Notes under the pieces: generated by a model | Seen by the model: only the letters and a program-made list of their open reading frames with translations | Databases searched by the model: none | What the model was told of the DNA's origin: nothing | Source: Cafeteria roenbergensis | Lineage: Eukaryota; Sar; Bigyra; Bicosoecida; Cafeteriaceae | Length of the DNA stretch: 64,000 nt | Reading direction: 5' to 3' | NCBI GenBank assembly: GCA_008330645.1 | Contig: VLTN01000047.1 | Coordinates: 186,001 to 250,000 of the forward strand | Shown here: positions 12,301 to 61,960 of the stretch, in pieces | Layout of the letters: each line of letters begins with the position of its first letter | Numbering within the stretch: the first letter of the stretch is position 1 | Translations under genes and position numbers: made by a program

Positions 12301-12338
12301 GGTCGCCGCCAAGGGCCTCTGACGCGCTTGTGCTGCCT

Positions 12339-12370
<32 letters not shown>

Positions 12371-40156: not shown

Positions 40157-43100
40157 TCAAGAAGATGGCGATGAGGCCGCGCGAGACCGTGCCACCAGCA
40201 TGGCCACAAGCCCAGCGGCCCCGGCAGCGACAGCAAGGCCGCCGGCCACCCACGCTGCAGTTTCCGCCGTAACGGACGGAGCGTCCTTGGAGCCAGTGTC
40301 GCTCTTGCTCGCATCGTGCGCGGACGTCGAAGCTCCAAAGGTTCCCGGCCCGACTGAGAGGCTGGACTGGCGCTGCAGCGCGGCCGAGCCAGGCGACCAG
40401 GGCCCCGTGACGACCTCTCGGCGCCACTGGAAGCGCTCCCCGTGCACGAAGCGGAGCAGCGGCAGAGCAGCCGAGTCCGGGCGGAGCGTGATGATCTTCG
40501 TCTGGCCGTTGAGGATCTCGCCGAGCGTCACGGTGACCGGAGTCCGCTCGGGGAGGCGAGAGGTCACGTAGAGGACGTCATCCAGCGTGGGAACGGGGGT
40601 CTCGTTGATCTTGAGGACCCAGTACGCCTGGCCGAGCTGGGCAGAGGCCTCCGACCCGCTCTCAGTGAAGCAGCAAACGACGCCGGCGGGAAGCCGTGCC
40701 TCCACGTCCACGCGTTCAACGCCATCCGCCTGAGCCTTGCCGCGGGCGGACGGCACTGCCTGGAGGCCGGAGCCCTGCATGGCGATCGCGGCTCGCTCTG
40801 CAGCCGGGGCCTTGTGGGGCGTGGACGCGCCGTTGTTCCAGGCGGACGCTGCGGCGGACGAGCGGTGGGGCGGCACGCCTACCCAGGGGACGCCGCTGCG
40901 CCGCAGGAGGCCGACGTCGGGGGGGGTCATGGTCATCCCCTGCCACTGCACCACGACCTTGGACGCGCCGCGGACCTCGACGGGATCGGTGCGCGCTGTC
41001 ACGCACACCTCGCGGCCATCGCGGAGAACGCGCAGGCGGACCGAGCTGCGAAGCCTGCAGCGCAGAATGACGTCGGCGGCGCTGCGGATGGGGAGGGGCT
41101 CGGTGAGGTCGTCCTTGTAGGTGGGGCGCGGGGGCGAGGCGCTGGCCATCCCCAGGGCGGCCAGCACGCTGCGGGCCAACGTCGGCTCGGCGGAGGCGGC
41201 CGCCGTGACGGCGCGCTTGGTCGCGGCTTCGCCGTCTTCGCTGGCAGAGTCGCTGTCGCCGATCATCATGGACGTTGGGTCGTCGTCCGGCTCGGGCCAC
41301 GAGTCTGGGAGCACCTCGAGGAGCACGTCCCGCTCGCGCAGGCCGAAGCGCTCCCCAGCAGCAGAGCCAGCGACGACCTGGGCCACAACGATGACCTCCG
41401 ACTCAACGGTGTTGTTCATGAGGGCGGCGGCGCGGCGGGCGGGCATGCCGAGGGCTGCCTGCGCGTCGGCGAGCGCCACGAACTCCAGCTGCACTCCCAG
41501 GTCGCTGAGCGTGGCGGAGGTGCCCTCCTTGATGCGGCGGATGACGCGAGTGACGGGCTCCTTGAGCCACTCGGCCGACACAGCCAGCGGGGAGTCGCCG
41601 CCGACCTCGGAGATCATCGCTACAATCTCGCCCTTGGCGTTGACTGCGATGCCGGGCTCGGACATGACGCCGTACCCGACGGTGTTGACGATGCGGTAGG
41701 CTTCGAAGGCCTGGCCGGCGTACTCGGGCAGGGCGGTGGCAACGTTTTGCGCGGCCTGGAAGACGTCGTCCTGCGCTGCGTTCACGCCGCCAGTCTCGTC
41801 GAGAGAGAGGAACCAGACGGCGTCCTTGGCGCCGGCCTTTTTGGCCGCCTTGCGCTCCAGGGTCATGTCGCGCAGGCCAACGTCGTCGCTGCCAAAGTGG
41901 ACGGCCTTGATTGCGTCAGCCAGGCGCAGGCCGCCGCTCTCGGAGCGGCCGCTGAGGTCGGCCTGGATGAGCGCAAAGGTGGAGGAGGGGCTGACGAAGA
42001 GGACGCGCGCGGGCACGCGAGCAACGCCCATCACGACGTGCACGATGGCCATGAACACGGGAACGATGGCGCGGTCCACCAGCACGATGCCGAGGTCGCT
42101 GTCCACCACAACGCCGCGGCCGTGGCTGACGTTGCCCGCCGCGGCACTGCCCATGCCCATCATGGCCTCGAGGCCCCCGGTTTCGACGCCGTCGATTTGA
42201 AGCGGAAGGCGGCACTCGATACCGACCAGGGCCATGGCGGCGTCCTGCACGGGCTTGGGCGCCTTCTCGAGGCTGGCCAGGCGCTGCTCCCGGATTGCCT
42301 CGGCCATTGCCTTGGAGTCCTCTGCCGTGGCGCGCTGGGCCGGGCGGCCGCGGGCCTTGGACGCGCCGGCCATCGCAGCCTGCGCCTGCGCCATGATGGC
42401 GTCCACCATGGCGCCGATGCCGTCCTCCCCGTCATCCTGGGACTGAACGCCAGCCTGGTCCAGGGCCTTGCGCAGCGCCCCCTCGAGCTCCGCGCGGGCG
42501 GCGGGCCCGCCCTTGGTCGCGGCGGTGGCGAGGAGCGCTCCAGGATCGAACTCAAAGTCGATGTCCTCGCCCTCCTCCTCGTCCTCCTCGTCCTCCTCCT
42601 CGTCCGCATCGCCGCTGGCGGGGACTCCGTCCTCGCCATCGAGGCTGCCCCCATCTCCCTCGTCGCCCGGGCTGGAGCCAGTTGCCTCGCCGCCGTCGTC
42701 GACGTCGCCACCCTCGCTACCGTCGTCTGGGACGCCGTCAGCGAGGCCGCCGCCTCCAAGCGCCTCCGGGCTGAGGTCGTAGTCGCCTAGCGCGTCAGTC
42801 ACGGCCTCCATCACGAGGGCTCGCGCTGCCGCGGGGAGCACGGGGCCCGTGCCAGGAAGGCTTGCCGCGTCGTCATCGGTGGCCGACACAGGGACCTCGG
42901 CCTCGCCGTCGGCTCCCGCGATGGCGAGCTGGAGCGAAGGCATGGCGGTCTCGAGCCAGCGAGACGGCGAGTCGCCCTCGGCCGCGCAGTCGTCAGCCAC
43001 GTGCCTGGAGAGGATGCGCGCCGGATGGAAGCGGCGGGTCATGTAGCACACAACGGAGCGGCGCGCGCCTGCAGGGCTGTGCAGGTCTGAGACGGTGACG

Positions 43101-45132
43101 CTGAAGTAGCTGTCCTCCCGGACCACGGCCAGCGCGGCGGCGGCGTCGGCGAGGCAGGTCACTTCGTGGCCGTCGATGCCGCGGAGCACCACGTCCTTGC
43201 CCACGTCGGCGAAAACAAAGCCCGGCGGGTTGATGACGCAGACGCCTTGGGGGTGGCCGTTGTTGATCGAGCGGATGACGGAAAGCTCGGCAATGCCGGC
43301 CCCGCCGATCTGCAGGACGCGCCGTGGCACAAGGGCGTGAGCGTCAACCACGGGGATGTCGACGTCGAGGATGCGGCCCGCGCGGACGATGGTGAAGCGA
43401 ATCTTGCCGAGGGCCTCGCGCCCGTTGGAGGCCGCGGCGGGGTGCCCGGCCGGGCAGTCGGGGTCGTCGGCGGTGGGCCGCGGGCCCGTGGCGGGCGCGT
43501 ATGCGGTCTTGGGGGCAGGAAGGGACGTGGGGCGCGCAGTCGCCGTTTCCCCTGCCGCGTTGAGGGCACGCAAGAACGAGTCGTCGTCGGCTGCCACGGG
43601 CTTGCGAGGGCCGCCGTCCTCGACGCCGCTGTCGTCGGCCTCGCCCTCCTCCGCCTCGCCCAGGAGGCGCACCGAGGTCCAGGGGGCCTGGAGGGCATCG
43701 CCCTCGTCGTCTTCGTCCTCGCCCTCATCGGTGCCGCGACCAGCTGCGGCTGCAGCGCCGGCCCCCGTGGAGCCTCGGCTGCGCTTTGCTGAGATGACGG
43801 CTTCCTTCTCGCAGAGAGCCTCCATTGCTGCGTCCATGGCCTGCTCGACGGGCCAAAACGCGCTCACGACGGTTCCGTTGACCTTGAAAACGACGTCGCC
43901 GGGCTGCAGAAAGCCGCGGCGCACGCCCACCTTGTCATAGGCGCGGCTGCCCCTCGCCGAGACCCCGCCACGGAGCACGTGCGAGACCTCGAGCATGCCG
44001 GTCGCGCCGGCATCCGCGTCCCCCTCGCTGCCCCCGGCCTCCACGTGAGCGCGCATGCCGGCCTCCTTCACTTCGGTGACCACCTTGGGGGGCACTCCCG
44101 AGCGCAGCACCTCGTGGAAGCGCTTGTGGGTGAAGATGGTGTGGCAGTCGCCACGGGGGACGTACTCGCCGCGCCGCAGGCGCTCCAGCGCGCGCACCGC
44201 TGGCCACAGGGGCAGGTACATGGCGGACGCGGCGCTGGTGGCGCCGCCCGCGTTGATGCCCACGGCCTCGCCGCGGATGTTGAGCACAGGGCTGCCGCTG
44301 GACCCGCCACTGGTGTTGGACGCTGCGCCGATGTAAAAGGTGTTGGCGTCGTTCCAGCCCAGGCGGCCGTAGTTGGGGCAGTTTCGGTCCAGCCGCGCGA
44401 TTGCGGCCGAGAGGACCTGGCGGCGCTCGCCGGCGTCGTTGCCGATGATCCGGATCTCTGCGCCAACACGGCATGCCTCTGGCCGCAGGGGGATGGCGGC
44501 AGGCACCCCGAACTTGAGGTTCGCGGGGTTGAAGCGCAGCAGCCCGAAGTCGTGAACCGGGTCGCGGTAAATGGGCGTGACGTCCACCTCCTCGTCGCCG
44601 ATCTGGGCCGTGAGGGACGTCACCCCGATGGTGACGATGTGTCTGCGGCGGGGCCGCGGCGGGCGAATCGGGCTTGGCGCGCGGAACTGTCGCCCCCATG
44701 GCGCCAGCAGGCACGCGAGCTCCGGCGCTGAATCTGGATGCCCCGGCAACTGCGCTCGGCGCAAGCCACGCGACCCCCAACTCCCTCCCCGATGCCGCCG
44801 CGGAGATGCGAGTGGCACGCCACGCACCAGCCGCGGCGCGGGGGGGCGGGGGGGGGCGCGGGGGCGCGCGCGCGTGCGCCAGTCTGGCACTGCGGGTGTA
44901 TCCAGCGCGCGGAACATCCGCCTCACCTGTTCGTCAGAATCAGCCCGCGCTCCGAGTCAACAATGAAACCCGTTCCCTCGCTGACGTAGGCCTGCGGCCC
45001 GCCCTCGAACGCGTGGCGGACGAACATGCGCACCACGCAAACGCTGGGCGAGACCCGGTTGATCATGGAGCTCCAGGCATCGTCCGAAAACGCCGAGGCC
45101 ATCGGCGCAGCGGCGGACGCTGCGGCAGCCAT
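40157..45132 (-). CDS. NMA111: Nma111-like HtrA/PDZ serine protease with C-terminal membrane segment (two exons)
   Basis: Exon 1 is 44927-45132 and exon 2 is 40157-44642, with a 284-nt intron (GTGAGG...GCAG). The splice completes the catalytic His motif ILTNR-HIVTIG. The 1563-residue protein has the HtrA triad His70, Asp100 (DPVHDFGLL) and Ser184 (GGSSGSPVLN), so it looks active. PDZ-like blocks lie near 270-335 and 505-570. A second, degenerate protease domain lies near 900-960 (GRGVVVDSDLGIVLVDRAIV), a hallmark of the Nma111 class. More PDZ-like blocks follow near 1150-1230 and 1380-1440. Differences from yeast Nma111 (997 aa) are a strongly acidic tract near 750 and a terminal hydrophobic helix (about 1535-1555). 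The helix is followed by ARSRAASSPSS and suggests tail-anchoring. Nma111 is a nuclear protease linked to apoptosis-like death; location here may differ. Confidence 0.85.
44840..44864 (+). repeat. G-run cluster inside the Nma111-like intron
   Basis: Runs of 7, 9 and 5 G on the plus strand, split by one to three bases, lie in the 44643-44926 intron. The transcribed strand therefore carries matching C runs. The tract could form G-quadruplex DNA on the plus strand. Confidence 0.7.
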
Positions 45133-45525: not shown

Positions 45526-47796
45526 TCAGTAGGTGGCATCCGTAGCAACCACCGGGTCGGCGGTCGCCGTCGCCGGTGCCCCCAAGCTCACAACACGTCG
45601 CACGCGCGCGGCCAGCTCGGGTCCGAACGCCGCATCGAGACGAGGGCAGCGCGCGGCCGCCTCCGCGACGGCCCGGCGCACGTCGTTCGCCCCGGGCTCG
45701 TCGCTGGCATCGTGGCTGATGACCAGCTCCGGCAGCCCGGCCGCCGACCGCATCGCCAGCAGACCCCAGCCGCTGGGCTGGCCGGCAAGCGCCTCGCAAA
45801 CCGCCAGCGCGGCCTCGCGGTCCTCCCACACTGCCGACTTGACAGCCCTGAGGAGCGCCGCGGCCGCAGCGGCGCCGCCCAGCACACCCCACAGCGCCTC
45901 GTGAACTGGAACTTCGGCCGCCTGTGCGGTTTCGCCAGCCGTCGCGGGCGCGCCTGCGGAGGGAGCGGCGGAGGAGGAGCCACCGGTGCCAGCACCGCCG
46001 TGCTCGGCCGCGCCATCGCCACCACTGCCGCTGCCGCTGCCGCTGCCGCTGCCACTGCCGCCGCTCCCAGTGCTTCCGCCGCCAAGCATATGGCTGGCCG
46101 CGTCCGCCGCTGCGGCGTCCCTGGCCGCAGCCTCTTCCTTGGGCATGCCGCGCAAGTGTTCCGGCAAGTCGCGGCTTCCGAGCGACCACGCCGCGGCTCC
46201 CAGCGCCCCCTGCCCTCGGATATCAGCTGGCGGCGGGACAGACGCAGCGCGGAGCACCTGGCTCATCGCCAGGCGACCAGACCGCCGAAGGATATCCGTG
46301 GAGGACGAAAACGTCTCCACGATCGCCGTCCGCCGCGCCCGGGCCAGCGCGCGCTCCATGGGGGTTGCCCCGCCGTCCGCCGAGTCACGGGAGCTCAGCA
46401 CCACCCGGAGCAGCTCCGGGTCGGCCGCCATCACCATCGCTGCAACCGCGGCAGAGTGGGCTTGCTGCCCCTCCGACGGCGACCCGAGGCCGTCCATCGC
46501 CGCCATGGCTGCCACCACGGCGGCGCTGCCCACTCGGAACTCGCGCAGCCGAGCGGCCTCCTCCTTGGCGCCCAAGCCGGCCGGGCCCTCGTGAAACCGC
46601 AAGCGCATCACCCTTGCGAAGATGCTGGCGAGCGCCTGGGCTGCCGCCTCGCTGCACACCGCGTCGGGCTCCGTGACGGCGATGCCGGCCTCCTCGGCGG
46701 GAGCGGCCTCGGCCGGCGACGGGGCGGCCCCAGCCGGCTCGGGCGGCAAGACGGCAGAGAGGCGCGCCTCGAGCGCCGCGGCGGCGGGCGCAGTGGCGAG
46801 GGTGAAGCCGCCGACCGCTGGCGAAGCAGGCCAGCCGGCCAGCTGCTCCATGCGCCCGAGGATGCCGCTGCGGCGAAGCCACGCGGCGCCGGCCGCTGTC
46901 CCGCACAGGAAGGAGAGGCTGCCCATGAACACGAGCCCCGACATGGGGTCAGCGTCCAGCGCGGCGCCGGAGAGGCTCTCGGCCGACACTGCCGCGGGAG
47001 CGCCCCCAGGGAGCGGGCGTACGACCGCGAACAGGGCGGCAGGGTGGCACCCGGCAAGCCGGCAGAGCACTTCGGTGGCCCTAGCAGCCTCCACGCTCCC
47101 GTCAGATCCCGAGCCGGAGCTGCGCGCTAGGGCCGCCCTCACTGCCGCGATGGCAGCCGAGAGGCGGGGAAGTTCCGTCAGCCCCTCGCTGGGTTCAGCG
47201 GCGGCCGCAGCAGCGGTGGCCGAGGAACCGGCTGACGCCTCGGCGTCTGCCAGCGCTGCCAACACCGCAACAACGACATCGCCGGCGGCGATGGCCACGG
47301 CGGGCTCCTCCGCGCCAACCAGGCCGCAGGCGGCCTCGAGAACGCGGGTCACAGAGCTGCTCGCGCTGCCGGCATCGGCGCTGCTGCCTGCGGGAAGCCA
47401 GCGGGAGGCGATCCATGGCGCGCCCGCCTCTGCGCATCGCAGCGCGGCCTCGATTCGCGCGCACCCCGTCTTGCTTGCGGCCCCACGCGCGGACGCGGTG
47501 CTCTCGATTGCGTCGGCCAGCGCGGCAAGGTCGGAGTCGTCCCCGCGGATCTCGGCCACGGCGGCGAACGCTTCGCCCGCGTCGCGAGCCGAGCGATCCG
47601 AAGTCATGGCGAAGAGCATTCCCAGGACAAAGCGCGGCGCAAAGTCCGCCGCGAAGCGCGTGGCATCAACAGCAAGGCGCCGTTCCAACCCCTCGATGCC
47701 CGCCGTGGAGGTCACTGCCAGGCGCCGGGTGGCCACGAAGCCGCGAAGCTCCCCCCAGGCGCGCGCATCCGCTGCCTTGTCTCCTGTCGCGGCCAT
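45526..47796 (-). CDS. PSMD5: PSMD5-like proteasome regulatory-particle assembly protein, 756 aa
   Basis: Single-exon frame from ATG 47794-47796 to TGA. The chain is helical and alanine/leucine-rich throughout, consistent with armadillo/HEAT repeats. The end is the clearest part: VWEDREAALAVCEALAGQ, then GWGLLAMRSAAGLPELVIS, then NDVRRAVAEAAARC. These match in order the last two PSMD5 repeats (residues before QPW, the segment after it, and the KY.LV.AL helix). A middle segment DPMSGLVFMGSLSFLCG followed by AAWLRRSGILGRM matches the PSMD5 pattern of a helix pair before gil..l. PSMD5/S5b is a chaperone that holds the RPT1-RPT2-RPN1 module while the 19S particle assembles. A Gly-Ser linker near 590-610 and an alanine-rich insert make it longer than the roughly 504-residue human protein. 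Family assignment is by pattern only. Confidence 0.6.
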   Translation of the reverse strand: MAATGDKAADARAWGELRGFVATRRLAVTSTAGIEGLERRLAVDATRFAADFAPRFVLGMLFAMTSDRSARDAGEAFAAVAEIRGDDSDLAALADAIESTASARGAASKTGCARIEAALRCAEAGAPWIASRWLPAGSSADAGSASSSVTRVLEAACGLVGAEEPAVAIAAGDVVVAVLAALADAEASAGSSATAAAAAAEPSEGLTELPRLSAAIAAVRAALARSSGSGSDGSVEAARATEVLCRLAGCHPAALFAVVRPLPGGAPAAVSAESLSGAALDADPMSGLVFMGSLSFLCGTAAGAAWLRRSGILGRMEQLAGWPASPAVGGFTLATAPAAAALEARLSAVLPPEPAGAAPSPAEAAPAEEAGIAVTEPDAVCSEAAAQALASIFARVMRLRFHEGPAGLGAKEEAARLREFRVGSAAVVAAMAAMDGLGSPSEGQQAHSAAVAAMVMAADPELLRVVLSSRDSADGGATPMERALARARRTAIVETFSSSTDILRRSGRLAMSQVLRAASVPPPADIRGQGALGAAAWSLGSRDLPEHLRGMPKEEAAARDAAAADAASHMLGGGSTGSGGSGSGSGSGSGSGGDGAAEHGGAGTGGSSSAAPSAGAPATAGETAQAAEVPVHEALWGVLGGAAAAAALLRAVKSAVWEDREAALAVCEALAGQPSGWGLLAMRSAAGLPELVISHDASDEPGANDVRRAVAEAAARCPRLDAAFGPELAARVRRVVSLGAPATATADPVVATDATY
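46010..46085 (-). repeat. Gly-Ser repeat tract in the PSMD5-like gene
   Basis: A short tandem GC-rich hexamer array (CCGCTG-type units) encodes alternating glycine and serine, about six GS pairs. It acts as a flexible linker before the conserved C-terminal repeats. Confidence 0.8.
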
Positions 47797-48233
47797 GGTC
47801 TCGGGGTGCAGCAGGCGCCGCGTGTCGGCCGCAAGTGCCCCAACGCAGCCCGCTCAGCACATCGTTGCACGGGGGCAAATATTTCCGGTCGGGCGCCCGC
47901 GCCGGTGTGGGACTTTGCGAATGGCGCAGCCAGGAGCGGTCCGCGCCTGGGCCTCGTTGGTGGGAACCACGAACAACCGCCCTCGCCTGCGGCACGCCGC
48001 CTGTTGGGGCACCGCTCGCGGCGTGCCCCGAAGCGACTGACGCCACGCAACGCCGGTGGCTCTGCACCGCCGAGACGACACTGCGCACGCCCTGGTTCGC
48101 GGCACGCCGGCTTGCCAGGTGCACATCCTCTGGAAACAGTGTTGACAGCGGTGCCTCTGCTGGCGCCTGGCACACGACGCCGCCGGGGTGGGGTGGGCTC
48201 TCGGAGGGAGCGAGATTGGGCAGCAGCGCGTCC
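47797..48233. promoter_or_regulatory. Divergent promoter region, PSMD5-like / GT41-like
   Basis: A 437-bp space lies between the start codons of two divergent genes. A locally AT-rich patch (ATATTT) lies near 47880-47885. I infer promoter function from layout and cannot define elements. Confidence 0.4.
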
Positions 48234-51200
48234 ATGCGACTGCGTGATGCTGCGATGGCGCTCGCGGCCGTGATTGCCTCCAGCCTCCTCGTGAACGGCA
48301 GGATTTCGGCACCAGCCCCTGCAGCTGCGAGTGTCGACGCGGAGTGCAGGCCGCTCGCGTCCCGTTCAGCGATGGCCGGGTCCTTGCACCGCCGCGTGCT
48401 GGGATGCGCTCGCGTAGCGCAGGAGCTTGCAAGCGAGGCCTCGACTGCTGGGACACCGATGGTTGCTCGGGCAGCTCGGCTGCTTGCGGCGGCGCAGGGC
48501 CTGTACTCCATCCTGCAGCCTGACCAGGTCTGCCAGAGCGTGGCCGACTGCTGCGAGCGCTCGCAGCTGTGCCTGCACCCGCAAGGCGTGAGCGCAATCC
48601 ACAGCTCCAGGTTGGCTATTGGGAGCGTTGCGCTGCGCGTGGGGCGCGAGGCATGGGAGTTGCCGGCAGGGGCCTTGCCGGAGCAGGAGCGGCTCGCTGC
48701 TGTGGCCGCCGCTTGGGCTGCAACGAGCCTGCTTGCGCTGCCCTCAAGCGGCCGCTTGACGGGGCTAAGGGGCTCACTGATGCCGATGGTGGAGGCGGCC
48801 GACTCCTCTCCCTGGGCGCAGTTCCTCGTGGCGAATTGCCACGCCGAGGCGGCAAGCAGCCTCGACCGCTGCGGTCGCGCCGCCCGCGCGCTTGTCTCGC
48901 TCGGGGTGATGGCTCGGTCGGGCGTCCGGGTCACGATGGAGATCAACGTCGCCGACTGGGTCCGGCCCCAGTCGCCTCCCGGCTCCCTTCAGTTCGTCGA
49001 GGAGGCGGCGCTGGCCAGCCGCCTGGCGGCCGGGATCGCCACGCGAGACGACTTCGTGACGACGCTCCTCCTCGCGGAGAAGGGCAGGGCGGCAGGCGGG
49101 GTCCTCGGCTGGCTTGCGGCAGCCGCGTCTCGCACCTGCGCTTGGCTCGCTGGCGCAGAAGAAGGCAAGGGCGTCCAAGAGCTCAAGCTGGCGTGGTCCC
49201 TGCTGGAGCAGCACGGGCCGGCGCCCCGAGCCATCATGGCCAGCGGCAGGAAGGCTTACGAAGTCGCAACGAAGGACATGGTGGATGCGATCTGGGTCAT
49301 CACGGACGAGAAATCCCCAAACACGCCCGACAGCGCCGTCGCCATCAGCGTCGCCTTGCGAGCTGCGAGGTACTCCGTTGGTGCCCTCGGGGCCGAAGTC
49401 CGCAAAGCCCTCGCGACCAGGCAGGCTCTGCGCGTCCGATCGGGGCTGGACGCCGGGTGTCGCCTCAATGCCTCCCTTGCGGCTCACCGTGGGTTCGTGT
49501 TTTGGGATGGCGGCAAATGCCCCGGGGCCAACTCCAGGGCCTTTGTGCCGCCTTCAGGCGCAGCGCTTACCGCAGCAACGGTGCGCTGGACAGCAATGCG
49601 GGCTCCTAGCCTCGCGTGGAGCGTGGCCCAGTTCCCCTCGGCACCCCGGTTCACCCTCTCAGGAGAGGACCGGTGGTGGTGCGACGCCTGGGCCAAGGGC
49701 GCCGCGGCGGTGACCGGCGGCGCAGGCAGCGAGGCACCCACCCTGCCGTGCCCTTGCTCGCTGGTCTTGGAAGGTGAGATCCGCTCCGACCCCGGCGCCG
49801 TGGACCCGTTTTGGATGACCAGAACGGACCATTGGGGAAGCGCCGAGGAGTCGATCGGGCTGTGGCGCCGAAACGTCGCCGCTGCTGTGGCCGACGGCGC
49901 GGGGGCGCTTGCTGCAGCTGGCGCTCGGAGGACTGGCCGCTACGCTCCCGCAACCGGGGCGGCCGGCAGTAGAGCGTGGTGGGGGCGCCTGCCGAGCTCC
50001 GCATGCCAATTTGATCCTTCGACGACTGCAAGCGTGGCCATCGTTGTGCCTGGGACTGCCACCATCACGATGGTCAATGGCTCCGTTGCGTCTGCGGCAC
50101 CTCAAACGACATGGGCGACGGACTTTGGCATTGAGCAACGGTTTGTGTACAAGCGCCCTGGGAGGGCCCTTGCGCTCAGCGCACGCTGGCCGGGCATGCC
50201 CATGGACGTCGGCCCAAGCATGGCCCAGATGGCCGAGGAGGCAGCGCTCGCTGGTCTCGCGTGGTCAGCTGGCGTGACTGAGGCCGATGTCCTGCCAGAC
50301 CCATCGAGGCCGCCTCTTTTTGAGCGCTTGAAGTCGCTGCATCCCCTGCTGGAGCCGGGCCTGATGCTCGAGAATGAGCTGCTCTCCCACCGCTTGCCCG
50401 ACCTCGTCGTTGCCGCCTCCGCGGCGCGCTGGAGCGCGGTCAACCTGCTCAACCACGTCAACCCCAACGCAACACTGAGCTCGGCGTTCGCCTTTGCTGC
50501 CGGCTTTCCTGAGGGCTCCAGCGTCGCTTGGAGCGTCATTTGCTTCGCAATGTTCAACAACGGACACCGTGGCTTCGGGCTGCTCGCATCAGCAGCAGGG
50601 GTTCGCTGGCGCCCTTGGCACTGGAACACCCTCGTCAACACCGGCACTTTGGCCGCGCACGGCTCCCTCGAAAGCGCAAAAACTGCGGCCGTCCTTTCCT
50701 GGGCAGACGCCCTCTCCCGGGCGCTCGAAGCTCCGGCTGAGGGCCGGTCTCTCGCGGACGACACCCTCGCGTCTGCCCCGGTGGCCGTGCCCTTCTCTGA
50801 GGCGCTTCCGCTCCGCCAGTACGGAGCGGGTACGCCCTGGGGCGCCGTTACCAAATCCCCAGTGGCCCCCGTCCAGGGCACAGTCGACCGCCGCGGCTTG
50901 GTTCGGGCTCGCCGGCCGGGAGACGCAGAGGATCGGAAGGTCGGCGTGCCAGTGGACGACGCGACAGGTCCCCTCGTTGCAGCCGCGTCAGTCTTTCCCG
51001 ATGCTGATGCGGCCGCTGCTCTGACGAGGGCGGGCATCCCCCAGAGCCCGGGCCCGCTGGTGGCCTGGAAACCCGAGCTCGACGAGATTCATTCACTGAA
51101 TGAGCCCGGGGAGTGGCTGTGGATCTTTTCGCCGGGGGGGGGCGTGTCCAACACAAGGCCCGTTAGCATCACTGCCCGCGAGCAGGGCGTGCCGCCGCTG

Positions 51201-54200
51201 CCTGTTTTGCCCGCCGGAAACCTCTCCGAGTCAGGAGGGCATCGAGCGTGCGACTGGACAGACTGTACCAGCCATGGGCGCAGGCTGGCGAAGCTTTCAA
51301 GGCGGCTCTTGCAGGCGAGAAGCGACACTCGTCCTCCCGGGAGCGGACCAGAGCCCGACCCGTGCGAGGACACTGGCAACGCCGACAGGCGCGACCTCGC
51401 GGCCCGGCTTGACAGGGTCGCAAGCCTCCTCTTTCATGTGCTCGCTCCAGTTGATGCAGTGTGCCCCAGCGACGTGGTGGAGCGTGCGTTCCCACCCACG
51501 ACCGACAGGGCCCTTGCGCAGCTTGGCTCCAGAGCTGCGCTGCGGGCAGCCAACGCAACGCTACGGCTGCTTGAGACGCTCGGATACGGCCGCGTTGCGG
51601 CGTCGGTTGCCGAAGCGACGGGAGCATGTGCCCCGCCACCGCCGACACACCAGCGCACCGCGCACGGACACTCGTCCGACGACGTGCTGACTGCTGCACT
51701 GGACGAGGCGGCCGCCACCATTCGGGGCCCCGCGCTCGACCACCAAGCCAGCCAGTGGCAGTGGAGCCAGGACGCGGTGACGAGCAACCTGCTGGCTCGC
51801 GGCCGAAGCGGCGACCAAGTCGCGGCATACTGGCGAGCATCGCAGATCGCGCTGGCATCACCGCCCAGCATCGGCGCGGTTTCGGCCAGCATCGCGATCT
51901 GCCCTTCCATCGTGAGCAGCAGGCAGGAGGTGGCCCCCACTCGCGCGGCGTTCGCTGGGACGATGGTGCAGCTGCTGCGTGCCCGCCTCGCAGCCAAAGC
52001 CTTGGAGGAAGTCCTCCGGCAGATTGCGCCGGCCAAGACTGCCGGAACCTCGTCATCGGCCGTGGCGGATGCGGTCGGGCGCGCTGCCGAGGCTGCAAGC
52101 TCGAGCAATGCGTGGGTCGCGCGCCAGTCCGAGCGGCCGTTCTACATTAGTTACCACGGCCGGGGCATCGGGTCTGCCCTCATTGTGCGCCTGTTCGAGC
52201 TGGCAGCGGCGCCGGATCACCTGCCTGCGGGGCCAGCCGCCGAGCGGCTGCGCGCGGCGCAGTGCGCTGCCGGCCGCGAGCTGGGCGGCAAGCGGCCAGC
52301 ACAGCGGCTGTCGTCGTGGAGCCCCACTGTCGAGCTCGCCGCCAAGACCGCCGTTGCGATGGGGCGGTGTGCCTTGCGGCCGGCCGTCGCTGCTGGCGAT
52401 CTCCTCGACATGCGCGGCGCAAGCGTTGCGCTCGCCATGCGTGCGGGCGCTCGCACCAACGAACGGAGCTTCGTGACGCTGCCCAACATGCAAGGCAAGC
52501 TCGCCGCGAGTATGGCGGTGGAGGGCTTGTCGCTGCCGTGGTGGCGCGTCATCCCAGCAGAGGCGCCCACGGTGCCACCGCAGCTTGCGCTGCTCGCAGG
52601 GTCGGAGCAACGGGCCGCTCAGTCGCTGGGGCTGAGGAACACGACGAAATGGGTGATGCACCAGCTCAAGCTGCCCGTGGACCCCGGCGCCTCGGCTTCC
52701 CCTTCCTCGTTCAGTGAGACGGCGCTGGCCTCCGCGCAAACGGCCTGGAAGCCGCTTCCCAGGCCGCTCGGGCTGCTGGAGCGGGCTGCCCTCGCCGCGG
52801 GCTCAGACCCTTGCCTGGCCTTGGGCCTCCGCAAGGCCCGAGTGGGATTCATCAGCAGCTTCTTCCGCGTGGAACACCCCCACGGGCACGTGCTGCGCGC
52901 GGCGGCCGCCGGCCTGGATCGCTCCTTCTTCGAGGTGGTGTTGATCCGGCTCACGCCGTTCATCGACATCGACCCAAACATCACGCTCATCGCGGACAGC
53001 GTCGTTGACGTGTCTGCTGACAAGTTGGAGGGGGCGCTCCGGGCCGTGAAGCTGCTGGGACTGGATGCCGTCATCTTCTCCGACCAGCTCGCCACAGCCG
53101 CAGGCTTCATGCTTGGGTCGCAGCGCTTCGCCCCCGTGCAGGCTGTGTTCGGCGGCGACCCCATGACCTCTGGGCACTCGAACAGCCTGGACTACTTCAT
53201 GGGCGGGGACCGGACCGAGGGGGACGGCAGCGACGTGCGCGCGCCGGAGGACCTGTCCCAGCAGCCGGTGGAGGAGCGTTTCGGCGCCGCGCTCTACGCC
53301 GAGCAGCTGGTGCGGCTCGAGGGCCAGGGCTACTCGTACGACCCTGCGCCGTCTGCCGTGCCCCCGCTGAGCCTTGCAGAGAGGCTCAAGCTGGCACTGC
53401 CCCAAGGCGGAGGAGATGGCGTGTCCAGTCCAGTCCTCATCGGCTGCATCCAAAGCTCCTTCAAGCTCAGCCCGTCGCTCGACGACGTCTTCGCGGCGGT
53501 GCTGCGGTCCTTGCCCAAGGCTCAAATTTTGCTCATCGCAGCGCGGCACCCCAGCTGGCAGGCCAAGCTCGAGGCCCGCTGGGTCCGCGTGATGCCGGAC
53601 GTGGTCAACCGCATGTTCGTCTCGCCGCGCACAGCCCCCGGCGAGCCGTTCATGAAGCTGATGGCCTCGGTGGACATGGTGATCCATCCCTTGCCGTTTG
53701 GGGGGTCGCGAACGGCCGCCGACTCCCTGGCAGCCGGAGTTCCCTTTGTCTCAATGCCCTCGCGGCTTGTCACCGGGCGCATGGCTCGCAGCCTGCTCGC
53801 CTCTATTGGCGCTGACGCCCTGATGGCGACGTCGCCATCGCACATGGTGCGCATTCTGCTGCGTTTGGCTGCGAGCCCCGAGACGCGCAGGGCCCTGGGC
53901 GAATCCATGATGCATCGCTCACACCTCGCCTGGAATCGGCCAGAGGTTGCGATGCAGTGGCAAGCCTTTCTCATGACGGCACTCAGGCTGCCAGTGCGCG
54001 ACCGCAGGTGGACCCAGCGCCTGATTGCTGCCCAGCAGGCGGCCGATGCAGCCGCCCTGCGAGAAGCGGTTGCCTCCGACCCGCATGGCGATCTCCTGGG
54101 GCGGCCGCTCCAAGGCTGCTCAGACCAGCCTCCGTCGCCGGAAGAAGCCCTGCGCTGGGGAGAGGGCGTCGCGGCTCGCCTGGCAGGCGAACACACGCTG

Positions 54201-54242
54201 TTCGCAGCTGGGGCACCCGCTGTTGCAGATTGGGAGCGATGA
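48234..54242 (+). CDS. Secretory-pathway protein with C-terminal GT41 (OGT/SPINDLY-like) domain, 2002 aa
   Basis: The frame is open further upstream, but ATG 48234 begins a clean signal peptide (MRLRDAAMALAAVIASSLL, then small residues), so I start there. The last roughly 460 residues are a GT41 GT-B fold. ARVGFISSFFRVEHPHGHV has the conserved His (about 1548). RFAPVQAVFGGDPMTSG then LDYFMGGD match the OGT motif around RPAPIQ...GTSG...DYI. IGCIQSSFKLSPSLDDVF has the nucleotide-binding Lys (about 1744). DMVIHPLPFGGSRTAADSL and GVPFVSMP close the UDP site, although the usual HTT there is RTA. No TPR array is evident; the long N-terminal region is alanine/tryptophan-rich with many N-x-S/T sequons. 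GT41 enzymes normally glycosylate Ser/Thr in cytosol and nucleus, so a signal peptide is notable. Donor and substrate are unknown. Confidence 0.75.
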   Translation: MRLRDAAMALAAVIASSLLVNGRISAPAPAAASVDAECRPLASRSAMAGSLHRRVLGCARVAQELASEASTAGTPMVARAARLLAAAQGLYSILQPDQVCQSVADCCERSQLCLHPQGVSAIHSSRLAIGSVALRVGREAWELPAGALPEQERLAAVAAAWAATSLLALPSSGRLTGLRGSLMPMVEAADSSPWAQFLVANCHAEAASSLDRCGRAARALVSLGVMARSGVRVTMEINVADWVRPQSPPGSLQFVEEAALASRLAAGIATRDDFVTTLLLAEKGRAAGGVLGWLAAAASRTCAWLAGAEEGKGVQELKLAWSLLEQHGPAPRAIMASGRKAYEVATKDMVDAIWVITDEKSPNTPDSAVAISVALRAARYSVGALGAEVRKALATRQALRVRSGLDAGCRLNASLAAHRGFVFWDGGKCPGANSRAFVPPSGAALTAATVRWTAMRAPSLAWSVAQFPSAPRFTLSGEDRWWCDAWAKGAAAVTGGAGSEAPTLPCPCSLVLEGEIRSDPGAVDPFWMTRTDHWGSAEESIGLWRRNVAAAVADGAGALAAAGARRTGRYAPATGAAGSRAWWGRLPSSACQFDPSTTASVAIVVPGTATITMVNGSVASAAPQTTWATDFGIEQRFVYKRPGRALALSARWPGMPMDVGPSMAQMAEEAALAGLAWSAGVTEADVLPDPSRPPLFERLKSLHPLLEPGLMLENELLSHRLPDLVVAASAARWSAVNLLNHVNPNATLSSAFAFAAGFPEGSSVAWSVICFAMFNNGHRGFGLLASAAGVRWRPWHWNTLVNTGTLAAHGSLESAKTAAVLSWADALSRALEAPAEGRSLADDTLASAPVAVPFSEALPLRQYGAGTPWGAVTKSPVAPVQGTVDRRGLVRARRPGDAEDRKVGVPVDDATGPLVAAASVFPDADAAAALTRAGIPQSPGPLVAWKPELDEIHSLNEPGEWLWIFSPGGGVSNTRPVSITAREQGVPPLPVLPAGNLSESGGHRACDWTDCTSHGRRLAKLSRRLLQARSDTRPPGSGPEPDPCEDTGNADRRDLAARLDRVASLLFHVLAPVDAVCPSDVVERAFPPTTDRALAQLGSRAALRAANATLRLLETLGYGRVAASVAEATGACAPPPPTHQRTAHGHSSDDVLTAALDEAAATIRGPALDHQASQWQWSQDAVTSNLLARGRSGDQVAAYWRASQIALASPPSIGAVSASIAICPSIVSSRQEVAPTRAAFAGTMVQLLRARLAAKALEEVLRQIAPAKTAGTSSSAVADAVGRAAEAASSSNAWVARQSERPFYISYHGRGIGSALIVRLFELAAAPDHLPAGPAAERLRAAQCAAGRELGGKRPAQRLSSWSPTVELAAKTAVAMGRCALRPAVAAGDLLDMRGASVALAMRAGARTNERSFVTLPNMQGKLAASMAVEGLSLPWWRVIPAEAPTVPPQLALLAGSEQRAAQSLGLRNTTKWVMHQLKLPVDPGASASPSSFSETALASAQTAWKPLPRPLGLLERAALAAGSDPCLALGLRKARVGFISSFFRVEHPHGHVLRAAAAGLDRSFFEVVLIRLTPFIDIDPNITLIADSVVDVSADKLEGALRAVKLLGLDAVIFSDQLATAAGFMLGSQRFAPVQAVFGGDPMTSGHSNSLDYFMGGDRTEGDGSDVRAPEDLSQQPVEERFGAALYAEQLVRLEGQGYSYDPAPSAVPPLSLAERLKLALPQGGGDGVSSPVLIGCIQSSFKLSPSLDDVFAAVLRSLPKAQILLIAARHPSWQAKLEARWVRVMPDVVNRMFVSPRTAPGEPFMKLMASVDMVIHPLPFGGSRTAADSLAAGVPFVSMPSRLVTGRMARSLLASIGADALMATSPSHMVRILLRLAASPETRRALGESMMHRSHLAWNRPEVAMQWQAFLMTALRLPVRDRRWTQRLIAAQQAADAAALREAVASDPHGDLLGRPLQGCSDQPPSPEEALRWGEGVAARLAGEHTLFAAGAPAVADWER

Positions 54243-54511: not shown

Positions 54512-57500
54512 TCACTGGGAGTGACCGCCACCCCCGGTGCTTGCGGAGGCAAGCGGGTTAGTGCAGCTCGTCACCGGCTGGCTTGGGCCGCGAGAAGGGG
54601 CTGCTTGGGGGGCTGACTGCAGCGCCGTTGGCCGCGCCGGCGGTGCAGGAATTGGGCCTGGCGCTGGCCGCATCGGTGACGCGAGCGGTGACCTCAAGGC
54701 CCGAGCGTGCCCAGCCGCGGCCAGCGGGTTCTGCGCGGCAAAGCGCGAGGAAGCCGACGGCGGGCGGACAGCGCTCGACGCCCCCGCTGCGCTCAGAAGC
54801 GCCGCTCGGGCGCCCGACGAGGTGACCTGGTGGTGGCGCTGGCCCGTCGCCGGCGCGCCAGGAGGGGGTGGGACGAAGAGCGGCGACGGCAGTTGGGCGG
54901 TCAACGGCCCGGCACTGCGCGGCGGGGGCGGCGGCGGAGGCATCCTCGGCGGCGTGCGCCTGGTTGCGGACAGCGGGTTGCGCAAGCCGTCGGACTGGCC
55001 GCCGCCTAGCAGGCCGGCGGACGACGCTGCTCGGTCCCGTTTTGCCGACGCTTGCGCTCCGGTGCTGCCGTCGGAGTCGGCGGAGTCTATGCTCGCGGGG
55101 TCGTCGTCGGTGCCAGCGCGCGAGTGCGCGGCGGCCGGGTCTCCGTCTTCGGAGTCAGACTCGGTGTCCGAGTACTCCAATGATTCCGCTGCGGCAGGCG
55201 GTGCGCGCCGCACAGCAGCGAGGCGCCCCCCCTCGACCATCTCAACGTCAGGGCCGACCTTCAAGGGGTCCGGCAGCCCCGACTCGACGGCGCTGAGCCT
55301 GGCCACGTGTCCATCCACCACGTCGGCCTTGCACAGCGGGCAGACTCTGTTGAGCTTGAGCCAGTTGTCCACGCCCTGCCGCGCAAAGGCGTGCTTGCAA
55401 GGCAGCAAGCGGATCACCGTGACGCCGTCTTCAAAGGGGTCGAGGGTGATGGGGCAGACGAGGTCGTCAGGAGCCGTGCCAACAAGGGGCGTCTGGTCCA
55501 CCAGCGCGCTGCGGAACACGAAGGCAGGGAGCATGGCCACGACCACTGCCGGCGTCGCCGACCCTTCCTGCCTCGCCCGAGTGGCCGCCTCGTCGAAGGA
55601 CTCGTTGTCCACCTCGACGTCGAAGCCAAACTCGATCTGCCGCCTGCGAATCATGCGGCGGCGGATCCGCCGGCCCACCAGGAAGCCCATGCAGCCGAGC
55701 CCGAACACCACAACGGTCAGGCCGACCACGAAGTACACGTCGAGCGGCCTGTTCTCGCGGGCCGTGAAGGACATGCGGAAGCCAAGCGGCAAGCCCTGCT
55801 CGCCCGCCCCGCCCCGCGTCGTCTCGATGCTCGTTGACAGCGCCCGGAGGCTGCCCGCTGTCGCCGCGCCCGCGCCGCGCAGGGTGACCGTGATCGCGCC
55901 AGTTGTGGCCGCAGCCACCAGCAGGCCGCCTGACGGAACGCCATCGCCGTCAGCTTGCGTCACTTCCACGTATCCTTGCGCCCACGCGACATTGAGCTCG
56001 TTGGCCCTGCCCTCCGCCCCCGCCAGGCTGCTTCCCGTGATGACCAGCATCGGCCGCCCCGCCGTCGCCGAGCTACCGTCGACGAGCTCGAGAGAGTCGC
56101 CGATGGCCAGGTCCACAGCCTCGATGACGGCGTACAGCGTGGGGAGAGTGGTGGTCTCGTACACCACCTCGCCGGTGGACGAGGACTGGCCGCTACCTCC
56201 GCCCGAGACCGACTTGATGGTCGACGTCAGGGGGCGGGGGTCGATCACCCACGAGCAGACCTGGCCTGAGCTGTAGCTGACGTCAATCCCTTGCGAGTCG
56301 GGCGAGGACGCGTTCGACGCCGAGGCCCTCGCCGCCGTGAGCACACGGGCGCGGCGCAGCGAGGCCACGGCAAGCGCGCGCGCCTCGGCAGCCGTGGCAG
56401 GGGACGCAGAGCCCTGCGACACGGTGCCGCTGAGCTGCACGATGCGCGTGGCGGAGCTGGCCGAGCAACGCGAAATGCACGTGTGCCTGGTCAGCTGCCC
56501 GAGCGTGGCAATGGCCGAGCAGGAGCTGCTGGCCACATCCATGGCGCCGCCCGTCGGCTTTGCGGCGTCGAGCAGGCACGTGCCTTGCCCGTTGTTGCCC
56601 AGGTCGCACCAGGAGCAGAAGGCCGAGGCCTGGCAGTCCCCGCACTGCGTGAGAGCCGCGCATTGCTCCTTCCGCGAGAGCGGCCGCGCGGGGCAAACCG
56701 GCTTGGACGTGCCGCTTCCGGGCCCGACCCAGCCAGAGGAGCAGCTTCCCAGCGCCGGAGCGGTGCCGTCGTCGCTGGCAGACACGCAGCTGCCGGTGGA
56801 GTTGCAGTAGCCGCAGCCGAGCTGCTGGCCGGTGCAGCCCGCGCAGATGGTCGCCGGGATGGCCGCAGGCGCCAGGGGATCCTCCCCGTCGTCCAGAACA
56901 AGCGCGGCCTCCCCGAGGTCGAGGCAGGAGAGCTCCCGGCGGAAGAACCAGGACTGGGTGCACTGCCCTGAAATGGGCCCGAAGCTGTTGCCCTCCATGC
57001 ACGAGCCAGCGGCCACGACGTCGGACCTCGTCGGCCCGCACCAACCGCACATGGAGTCGTCCAGGCAGTGGCTGCGAACCGACCCCGAGCGGGTTGGGCA
57101 GCGCTGGGACGGGCAGATGCGCTTGTCGTCCGCGATGGAGGCTTGCGGGCAGGCGCCGTTGCCCACTCGCGGCGTGTCAACGAGGCCAAGAGCGTGGACG
57201 GACGAGCACTTCTGCGACGAGCGGCAGAAGCGGCAGTCCGCCCGGACGGTGCAGGAGTCGCAGCCACTGAGGGCCGAGCAGGAAGGCAGGCACTGGGACG
57301 ACGACACGGGCAGCGCCGTCGCTGCGAGGGCGTTGAAGTACTGAGCCTTGGACTCGGGGAGGAGGTCGAGGGGGCCTGACCCAGTGGTGCCACCAGAGGG
57401 GGTCAGCACGGGACAGGTCACTGAGCCGAAGCCGAACTCCGTGGGTGTGCCTGGTGCGCAGGCGTCGCGCGTCGGGCAGTAGGAGCAGGCTTGGTCCGCG

Positions 57501-60500
57501 AGGCAGTCCGCGCACGACACGGGGGACTCGCCCTCTGCCCTGCAGCCGGGAGCCGCCACGCTGGTCACGCTGCCCGCAGCGGCAGTGCCGAGGCCTGCAG
57601 GGCGAGCGAGCTCCATGACGCCCATGCCACGGACCGCCGGCGCGTTGGCAGCCGCGGCGGCAGCCAGCGTGGCGACAATGTCGCTCTCGCTGGCCCGAGC
57701 TGCCGCCGAGAGCGAGGCCTGCTGCTCCACGGGCAGGGAGCTCAGCGGGGCAACCGCCACGAGAACGGTGAGCACCGCGGTGGCCACGCTTCCGGGGGAG
57801 GAGGGGGCCGCCTGAACGGCCTCCAGGTCGGTGAGGCGCGCGGAGCGCAGCGCTAGCCGCGGCTGGAGCGAGCTGTCGATTCCCGCGGCTGCGGCCAGCT
57901 GGCGGAAGAGAGAGCCGATTGCGTTGCCAGCCAGTGCCACCGGCGTCCCGGGGCCGAGGAGCGCAGAGATGGCAGCCTCCTTGGCAGCCGGAGACGCGCT
58001 CGAAGCCAGCCCGAGGTCGGAGCTCAGCGCCGCCGTGGCCAGCGGGACGTCAGGGTACGGTGAGGCCGGTGCCCCCGACGCTTGGGAGATCCCGAGCAGG
58101 GCAGTCGACCCGCGCGCCACGCGCAGACGCAGCACGAGCGGCTCCCCCTTGACGCCGGAGCAGTCCGCGCCCTCCCAGCCTGCGCTGCACCCGCAAATGC
58201 CGTTCCACGGGTGGCACGCGCCCAGCATGGGGACGCACTGCGGGACGCAGGGCTTTGGGTCGTCGGTGCGCGACGAAACGGCGTTGGAAAAGTTGCCCTG
58301 CAGCGTGGTCCCGGCGAAGAGGCGGATGGTGTAGTTCGTGGACCAGGTGAGCCCGGTCACGTTGGCGACGAACCACGTTTGCGGAGAGCCCGGCGGGGAC
58401 CACGCCGCCGTTTGGTTGGCTGTCGCCTGGCGCGTGCTGACGGTGAAGTACGTGTTCTGCTGCACGCCGTTTATGAGCAGGGAGCGGAAGTAGTTGAACA
58501 CGGGGGGGCCGCCGGTGTCCGCGGGAGGCCGGAAGCGGACCCCGAGCTGCACTGCAGTGCGCCACTCCGGCACCAGAGCGACGTCCCGTGGCGGCGTCGC
58601 CTTCTGCGCGCTAGTCTGCACCTGCACTGCCTCGCTGGGAGGGCCCCATCCCGCCAACGTGCGCGCCCGGGTGTACAGCCGGTACCGCGTGTAGCGCTGC
58701 AGCCCGGTGTTCCACTCCATCAGGGGCCAGCCGGCGGCTTTGCGCAGCGTGAAGGTGGAGGGAGCGGTCAGGTCGTCCAGAAACGGCGACGTTGACGCCG
58801 CAAGACCCGGCGGAAGCGGGAGCGCCACGGCGCCGGACGAGCGGTTTTGCAGCGACGCCTGCAGCCAATCGTCGCGCCACTGGGGCTCGTCCTCCCACCT
58901 TGTCGCGTTGACGGCAGTGGCGTATCCTTCCCAGCTGGACGGGTCGCTTGCGTCGAAGAAGATGCTACCGCCAGGCTCGCCGGGCTGGAGCACCTGCCGC
59001 TCCCGCTGCAGGACAAGCTCAGCCACGCTGCACCCCCCCGTCGAGACCGGAGGCCTGGCGAGCGGGAGCAGAGCTGTGCTGCGCGCAGTGCTGAGCTCTG
59101 GCGCCGCGGCCGCCCCTGGCGGCACCGCCGGGGTCACCAGCACCCCCACGTCGCTGGGCGCGGACACGAAGGACTGCTGCGCGACGACCCGCCACGGGCC
59201 TGCCGGCAGCGCCCCTGCCCGCCAAGTGCCGTTCACGCTGACGCACTGCGCCGACGTCGCCGCAGCAATCGCAGCGGCAGCGGGCACAGTGCAGGAGCCG
59301 TTGCCAGCCGGGGGCGTTGCCGGGCGCAGCGTCTGCCCGTGGCAGTCGCACCAGCTCGGCAGCCGAGCAGACTCGCTCGCTGTCGCCTGGTCCGCCGCCA
59401 GGTCCATCGTGATGGCGCGAAACCGCACCCGGTAGACGCTCGCCGCGTCCAGCAGCAGCGGCACTCGCACCTGCAAGCCGCGGGCTTCGGCGTCGGGCGG
59501 GGCGTCCGCCATCAATGCCGCCTGCTCCCGGCTGATGCCCCCACCGGCCAGGGTCCACGCCTCCAACGCGTCTTCAGCTGCTGCGGCTGCGGCGTAGGCG
59601 TCGTCAACTGCGGTTGCGCCGGGGCCGCCGCCGCGGCCCGCGGTGGGCGACGGTGCCACTGGGTCTGCCCTCAGCCATCTGGCCAGCGGCACCACGCCAG
59701 CGCCGGCGTCGGTCGCCCAGCCCGGGAGCATGGGGCGGATGGCCTCGGCAAACGCCGCAGCGGGCTCCGCCGCAGCAAGCATCGCCGTCGCAGCAGCCTC
59801 GTCGAGCGGCAGCCCGTCGGCGCCATCCGCCCCAGGCGCCGGCTGCGGCTGCAGCGTCGTCGCTGCCTCGGCGGCGAGCGCGGCCGTGGCGTTGCGGCCG
59901 AGCCCGGCGGACCACGAGAGCGTCCACTGCGAGCCGGTGGCGTTCGTAAACGTCCCCGATGCGGAGTGCGAGGCGGCGGCGAGGGCCCAGGGCCGGAAGC
60001 ATGTCAGGCCCAGCCACGACCAGCGGACGCCACGGGTCCCGACTGCGATGTTCCCCGAGCCCGAGTCGACCGTGTTGGGCTTGCTGGGGATCTCGGTGGA
60101 CTGTTTCAGCTGGAGGGCCTGCTCCAGCCCCGGGCTCATGTGCGCGCCGATGCCGGTTCGGTAGGCGCTGTTGGCCACGGACGGGGAAGTGGCGTTCTGG
60201 TCCGGGAGGCGGAGCCAGGGGCTCCGCACCTCCCGTCCGAAGGGCAGGTCCGGCACGCTCGGCACATCCGAGAGCGGAAGCGGGTCGCTGACCACGACGT
60301 CGATCTGCGCAGCCCATGAGTCGGCCTGGCTGTTGCCGTCGCCGAGGGCCAGGCCGTCTCCGCGAACGCCGGGAGCAGTCGGCATGCCTGCCGTGCCCTG
60401 CAGCGGGTCGTATCCGATGCGCCTGCAGGTGTCGAACACCCGACCGTCGAGCGCCACCTCTGGAATCAGACACGTCACACCCAGGCCGCCGAATCTCGCG

Positions 60501-61609: not shown

Positions 61610-61960
61610 TCCTTCTGCAACCTCCCAGGAATCCTGCTGCCACGGGCCGGCCGGCCGGCCGGGTGCCGCGCGGCGCCGCTGGGGGCCTGGAGGCCGCGCC
61701 CGGGGCGCAGACGCGCGCCTGGAGGACCGGTGGCGGGGCCTCGGCGGCGGGGCCTGGACTGGCCCTGGAGCTGGCGTGCCGAGGGTCGCGGGTTGCTCAC
61801 TGCCGAGTTCGCTCACAACTCAAACGCAGGGCGAGGGCCGCGAATATTTGCAATCGCCCGCGGGACGTCGATCGACCAAACGCCGCCCGGCCAGCCGCGA
61901 ACCGCAGGCAGGCGGCCGCATCACTCACGCAGCCCGGCGAAGGGCTGGGGCCCGCTGGCC
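61610..61960. promoter_or_regulatory. Divergent promoter region, RING receptor / secreted protein
   Basis: A 351-bp space separates the chosen start codons of two divergent genes that both begin with signal peptides. It contains a short palindrome GCCGGCCGGCC near 61649-61660. Promoter function is inferred from layout. Confidence 0.4.

Follow-up and report, generated by a model that had tools for sequence, protein, structure and literature searches.

A GT41 (OGT/SPINDLY-like) glycosyltransferase domain behind a signal-peptide-like N-terminus in a 2002-residue protein of Cafeteria roenbergensis

In a 64,000-nucleotide stretch of Cafeteria roenbergensis DNA (assembly GCA_008330645.1, contig VLTN01000047.1, positions 186,001 to 250,000; hereafter the window), an open frame of 2002 codons links a signal-peptide-like N-terminus to a C-terminal glycosyltransferase domain of family GT41, which includes OGT and SPINDLY (SPY). 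Judged from its sequence, the product is probably a lumenal glycosyltransferase of the endoplasmic reticulum (ER) or Golgi, of GT41 descent and with a donor specificity that is neither OGT- nor SPY-like. The features and their coordinates are collected in Table 1.

The GT41 descent is firmly indicated by sequence comparison. With the frame read from position 47415 as the query, the C-terminus matched PF13844 (Glyco_transf_41) at E 5.5e-12 and 45.1 bits, against a cut-off of 25, and the gene scored 33.1 bits in a six-frame search of the genome. The sole other Pfam family listed was PF13524 (E 0.036, under its cut-off). The best relatives in the PDB were human OGT (2e-10) and Thermobaculum OGT (3.8e-10), the latter aligned in a single piece over most of the domain, and a profile of the domain and its closest paralogue, L015, also matched Xanthomonas OGT, SPY and, more weakly, HMW1C. 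For this last type (HMW1C/NGT), a bacterial cytosolic N-glucosyltransferase, the NCBIfam NGT model gave 14.6 bits against a cut-off of 1000. The first-pass annotation, made from the letters of the window, had placed a GT41 domain at the end of a very long chain; these matches bear it out, and the profile search placed no other glycosyltransferase family at the C-terminus. The conserved His and Lys that it had named align with those of human OGT, and the Asp after the uridine diphosphate (UDP) motif is likewise common to the two proteins.

The donor site is altered around these residues. PFGGSRTAAD aligns with human LCNGHTTGMD, giving SRT here and SKT in L015 for the human HTT; the first-pass reading of this motif, RTA, was one position off. 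In what we take to be human OGT numbering, anchored to residue pairs of PMC10027727 section 7, L866 is replaced here by I, H901 by F, R904 by L, C917 by F, H920 by S and T921 by R, with T922 and D925 retained. Thus S-R-T and F stand in place of the HTT motif and C917 that mark an OGT-type enzyme for UDP-N-acetylglucosamine (UDP-GlcNAc). The residues K689, A731 and Y744, which in SPY specify guanosine diphosphate (GDP)-fucose (PMC10027727 section 7), are replaced at the aligned positions by I1768, L1809 and F1822. The protein resembles Arabidopsis SPY, a GDP-fucose enzyme, in an aromatic residue at the position that senses sugar size (F for Y744) and a non-basic residue at A731 (L), whereas the guanine-binding K689 is Ile and, by a constant offset to the human numbering, H728 and T748 would correspond to Phe and Arg. 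F1822 falls on TtOGT Y419 in the PDB alignment; the sugar-size position is Y744 in SPY, Y419 in TtOGT and F517 in ApHMW1C, the bacterial UDP-glucose enzyme with which the protein has Phe in common, and an aromatic residue there has been argued to disfavour GlcNAc (PMC9715652 section 12). A change of donor is plausible from these substitutions, and the donor would probably be a hexose without an N-acetyl group. Because neither the SPY Lys nor the OGT Arg is present, the nucleotide base is not predictable.

The N-terminus of the protein carries the hydrophobic segment MRLRDAAMALAAVIASSLLVNGRISAPAPAAAS. We scored signal-peptide likeness by an 11-residue hydrophobic window free of charges close to the N-terminus, with a cleavage site of small residues after it, and took 372 internal Met positions from 11 frames of the 64-kb window and eight GT41 proteins as the background. 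The start of the 2002-residue protein was matched by just 0.3% of these positions, in agreement with the first-pass reading of a signal peptide. Signal-peptide-like starts were found in seven of the eight GT41 genes of the genome, the background fraction scoring as high or higher being 0.003 for the 2002-residue protein, L010, L013 and L014, 0.011 for L011, 0.024 for L012 and 0.046 for L015. The exception is L009, the canonical OGT with tetratricopeptide repeats (TPRs), which showed no such start by our score and whose frame may miss the first exon. Under a rule by which any of the first three Met scores at least 1.84, a threshold chosen after the scores were seen, 7 of 7 GT41 genes passed versus 9 of 29 other genes (Fisher p 0.0014); when the canonical OGT was counted as a miss, p was 0.0066. 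The passing controls comprised 3 of the 11 other frames of the window and 6 of 18 other frames of family GT4, 16 of which lie above the Pfam cut-off. Dropping L021 and L035, in which the first Met lies within the domain or less than 100 residues ahead of it, left 8 of 27 passing (p 0.0012). The ALG-like frames L021 and L026 seem N-terminally incomplete and were not counted as negative controls; the GT4 frame L022, by eye like the cytosol-facing PIG-A and with a start that seems complete, has no signal-peptide-like start. Since the signal recurs across a diverged family, entry of the protein into the secretory pathway is likely.

That family was delimited by a six-frame search for GT41 over 36,303,456 bases in 167 contigs, which gave 12 matches in at least eight genes. 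L009 scored 489 bits and has at least ten TPRs. Scored as whole proteins, L013 (22.8 bits) and L014 (21.1 bits) do not reach the Pfam cut-off; by the six-frame search L013 passed at 25.9 bits and L014 only together with a neighbouring stretch (25.2). L015 fell short in the six-frame search (23.2) but passed as a whole protein (26.0), and it is the closest paralogue of the 2002-residue gene, to which it is 45% identical across 437 aligned positions. An unrooted tree was built from the eight GT41 domains of this one genome (267 columns, from blocks cut at anchors that we chose); in it, a branch with 100/100 support parted L009 to L012 from L013, L014, L015 and the 2002-residue gene, and the last two grouped at 95/97. 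Members with signal peptides occur in both four-gene clans; as a single change on this unrooted tree would account for the labels, independent gains in the two clans are not demonstrable. All eight domains retain the His and seven retain the Lys (Arg in L011), although the second half of L014, including the Lys block, is uncertain. The first-pass annotation had proposed a lumenal or secreted lineage, or a Golgi enzyme with changed donor use. At the level of the family, the seven signal-peptide-like starts support a lumenal GT41 lineage, and the donor change is plausible from the substitutions; the exact motif on which it was argued does not hold. Searches of the viral contigs and genome contigs collections, narrow ones with two short peptide patterns each, found no relatives of the GT41 domain; none of the canonical OGT domain were found in the viral contigs collection, and a DNA pattern for bacterial GT41 had no match in the genome contigs collection. 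The phylogeny is accordingly confined to the eight domains of this genome.

The start of the frame was placed by codon log-odds trained on other genes. The frame ranked first of six in 32 of 32 segments of 360 bp starting at 48315 to 53895, and in the five segments starting at 47415 to 48135 it was not the sole first, with a tie at 48135. It remains open upstream of 48234, to 2385 codons in total, with in-frame ATGs at 47415, 48234 and 48255. Because ATG 47415 falls within a divergent open reading frame and the codon signal begins near 48234, ATG 48234 or 48255 is the most likely start, and both retain the hydrophobic segment; this placement comes from codon statistics only. The log-odds reach their lowest values around 51.0-51.55 kb, and an in-frame intron is possible there. 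Single-exon genes cannot be assumed in Cafeteria, as its genome is given 1.67-1.89 introns per gene (PMC6972860). The GC content of the window is 66-76% per kilobase.

Between signal and enzyme, the chain offers little that is recognisable. Its N-terminal part resembles that of L015 and has a CCER (Cys-Cys-Glu-Arg) motif in common with it, a likeness that is suggestive only, since the similarity is weak and 7 of 500 shuffles were equally good. Here a single-sequence AlphaFold model gave helices at about residues 50-89 and 130-159, with block mean pLDDT (predicted local distance difference test) values of 71-79. Over residues 170-1533, similarity to L015 was not significant, 21, 91, 61 and 63 of 200 shuffles being equally good in four segments. 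The first-pass annotation had also counted many sequons as a secretory sign. Shuffling predicts 3.5 and the protein has 7, but for the USP-like ubiquitin-hydrolase frame of the window the figures are 5.5 and 10, nearly as large an excess, so the sequons are no evidence.

TPRs, which the first-pass annotation could not see, were absent from the 2002-residue protein by Pfam up to E 1. A hidden Markov model from ten TPRs of the genome's own OGT found none either, but this model is too narrow: it scored L011 at -0.5 despite the Pfam TPR match of that protein. In L011, TPR_19 (E 6.6e-9, 36.4 bits versus 25) lies between the signal peptide and the GT41 domain. The absence is thus a trait of the 2002-residue member and not of the whole set, and lumenal TPR-GT41 proteins may exist too. 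The L011/L016 locus (contig C35, about 177.7-185.4 kb) is an open frame of 2571 residues with signal peptide, TPR_19 and GT41; the C-terminal stretch of L011 is weakly Glycos_transf_1-like (E 0.0012, under the cut-off).

Human OGT is nucleocytosolic and carries TPRs, in contrast to the signal-peptide-like start, undetected TPRs and SRT of our protein; its lobes are also separated by an intervening domain (PMC4683255), where the 2002-residue protein has just a short linker. SPY is nucleocytosolic as well (PMC10027727, PMC9715652), and the available passages of PMC8724618, PMC9715652, PMC3188802 and PMC10038220 give GT41 enzymes a cytoplasmic or nuclear location. EOGT (GT61) would have a lumenal site of action in common with our protein, but its family is unrelated (PMC8724618). 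An intermediate TPR-GT group of prokaryotes and stramenopiles with mixed specificity residues has been described (PMC10027727 section 7). The 2002-residue gene, which would share with that group both the mixed three-residue pattern and a stramenopile host, may belong to it; the group was drawn from TPR-containing proteins and secretion is not mentioned in that section, whereas our protein has no detected TPR. No eukaryotic GT41 protein is described as lumenal or secreted in the available passages of the open-access literature searched, which leaves most subscription papers and bioRxiv preprints outside, and GT41 and O-GlcNAc go unmentioned in the main text of a flagellate gene-expression study (PMC10268365). 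Species with a predicted signal peptide on OGT or OGA were dropped from one shortlist (PMC4683255), so a predicted secreted GT41 may have been noticed earlier.

Several observations weigh against a lumenal enzyme. The signal-peptide score is home-made, not SignalP, and its controls are imperfect: the 29 are mechanical open frames, several of which may miss their true first exon and so count as false negatives, while some of the positives may be genuinely secretory. The contrast between GT41 and control genes is flattered, because some control frames probably lack the true N-terminus. For L015, the closest paralogue, as many as 4.6% of the internal Met positions score as high or higher, and the signal-like start of L012 is its third Met. 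Inspection of the C-terminus showed no ER-retrieval signal, and the lack of a Pfam TPR counts here too. The single-sequence AlphaFold model of residues 30-1149 (mean pLDDT 38.8) is unusable beyond the two helical blocks; a Foldseek search with it gave no match at E <=0.001, from which we conclude nothing, and the model of residues 1440-2002 (38.5), which would bear on the GT-B fold, is likewise unusable. Finally, the changes of OGT nucleotide-binding residues (H to F, T to R, R to L) mean that the domain could be inactive.

Within the lumenal reading, protein O-glycosylation is one option for the enzyme and glycan elongation another. Most characterised GT41 enzymes modify protein, which speaks against the second option. 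An active lumenal enzyme that elongates glycans or surface polysaccharide, and does not initiate O-glycans on protein, is a sub-case that we consider less likely than not: the genome also has GT4 genes with signal-peptide-like starts, and HMW1C, with its similar Phe at the sugar-size position, also joins one glucose to another (PMC9715652 section 12).

It is improbable that this GT41 protein is cytosolic or mitochondrial, with a hydrophobic N-terminus that does not work as a signal peptide or with its true start elsewhere. Ala-rich hydrophobic stretches are common in a genome of 70% GC, as the controls passing the lenient first-three-Met rule illustrate, and the start carries two Arg, a residue that mitochondrial presequences also carry. 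However, the feature is common to seven of the eight GT41 genes, L022 with its plausibly full N-terminus lacks it, and the coding statistics set in near the proposed start. Still less probable is a secreted or lumenal pseudoenzyme whose GT41 domain has lost donor binding and acts as a lectin or scaffold: it would account for the replaced nucleotide-site residues (H901 to F, T921 to R and R904 to L), but the His, the Lys and the Asp after the motif are retained and L015, although just 45% identical, has a like pattern (SKT, F, K, H), which points to selection for a functioning site.

For the lumenal GT41 enzyme that we favour, the following course can be envisaged. From an ancestry in the nucleocytosolic OGT/SPINDLY-type family, the chain would be carried by its signal peptide, presumably cleaved, into the ER. 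The C-terminal two-lobed domain would employ a nucleotide sugar imported to the lumen and glycosylate passing proteins or glycans with it, and the long N-terminal part may recruit acceptors, as the TPRs do in OGT. On this view the gene belongs to a set of seven found in the genome, alongside a single canonical OGT of cytosolic type.

In eukaryotes, GT4 enzymes are usually oriented towards the cytosol. Five of the 18 GT4 frames (L027, L029, L030, L032 and L033) have a signal-peptide-like start at the first Met, with scores of 1.84-3.03, so re-targeting may reach beyond GT41; the window itself encodes a GT4-type glycosyltransferase of 867 residues (37333-39936, +; Glycos_transf_1, E 8.2e-22) with such a start (score 2.03). 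Three further frames of the window lie on the minus strand. A 2434-residue frame at 54512-61816 is possibly a membrane RING protein: it contains a RING domain (E 8.3e-8) and 16 sequons (5.7 expected), and its first Met is signal-like and very hydrophobic (2.62). In a 1589-residue frame at 40157-44926, several weak PDZ matches accompany a trypsin-like domain (E 8.4e-14) in an HtrA-like layout, and the ubiquitin-hydrolase frame, 4711 codons at 3383-17518, has a ubiquitin carboxyl-terminal hydrolase domain (E 4.2e-37) and a USP9X/USP24-type ARM match (E 6.9e-7).

Table 1 Features of the 2002-residue gene in window coordinates, and the GT41 genes of the genome
Feature	Position	Strand	Basis or remark
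Whole coding frame	48234..54242	+	2002 codons, then stop (54240-54242); open from ATG 48234
Signal-peptide-like N-terminus, residues 1-33	48234..48332	+	home-made score 2.55
Cys-containing helical segment, residues 30-167 (Cys 38, 58, 100, 106, 107, 113)	48321..48734	+	AlphaFold blocks
Long middle region without recognised domain, residues 168-1533	48735..52832	+	no Pfam match up to E 1
GT41 catalytic domain, residues 1534-1930	52833..54023	+	Pfam PF13844; PDB OGT/TtOGT matches; paralogue L015
His1548	52875..52877	+	aligned with His of human OGT NHP motif
Lys1744	53463..53465	+	aligned with Lys of human OGT YKIDPS motif
Donor-site segment F1822-G-G-S1825-R1826-T1827-A-A-D1830	53697..53723	+	aligned with human C-N-G-H-T-T-G-M-D
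Divergent neighbouring open reading frame, outside the enzyme	45526..47796	-	bounds upstream region; no Pfam match up to E 0.01
GT41 genes L009, L010, L011, L012			C24, C6, C35:182k, C11
GT41 genes L013, L014, L015			C16, C20, C35:116k
GT41 gene of 2002 residues			this work

More tentatively, the OGT/SPINDLY family may have moved into the secretory pathway of Cafeteria and expanded there to seven or more lumenal enzymes in two clans, of which some have TPRs and one is fused to what may be a second glycosyltransferase domain, forming a secretory glycosylation system undescribed in the literature searched and using donors other than UDP-GlcNAc or GDP-fucose. The literature passages treat eukaryotic GT41 as nucleocytosolic and EOGT as the unrelated lumenal enzyme, a division that a multi-gene lumenal GT41 family would break. 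If the reading is true, it would show the re-use of a cytosolic signalling enzyme in the secretory pathway and provide natural variants for testing the residues behind GT41 donor choice. It would also give a lead into how the surface is glycosylated in a marine grazer that serves as a model host of a giant virus and a virophage.

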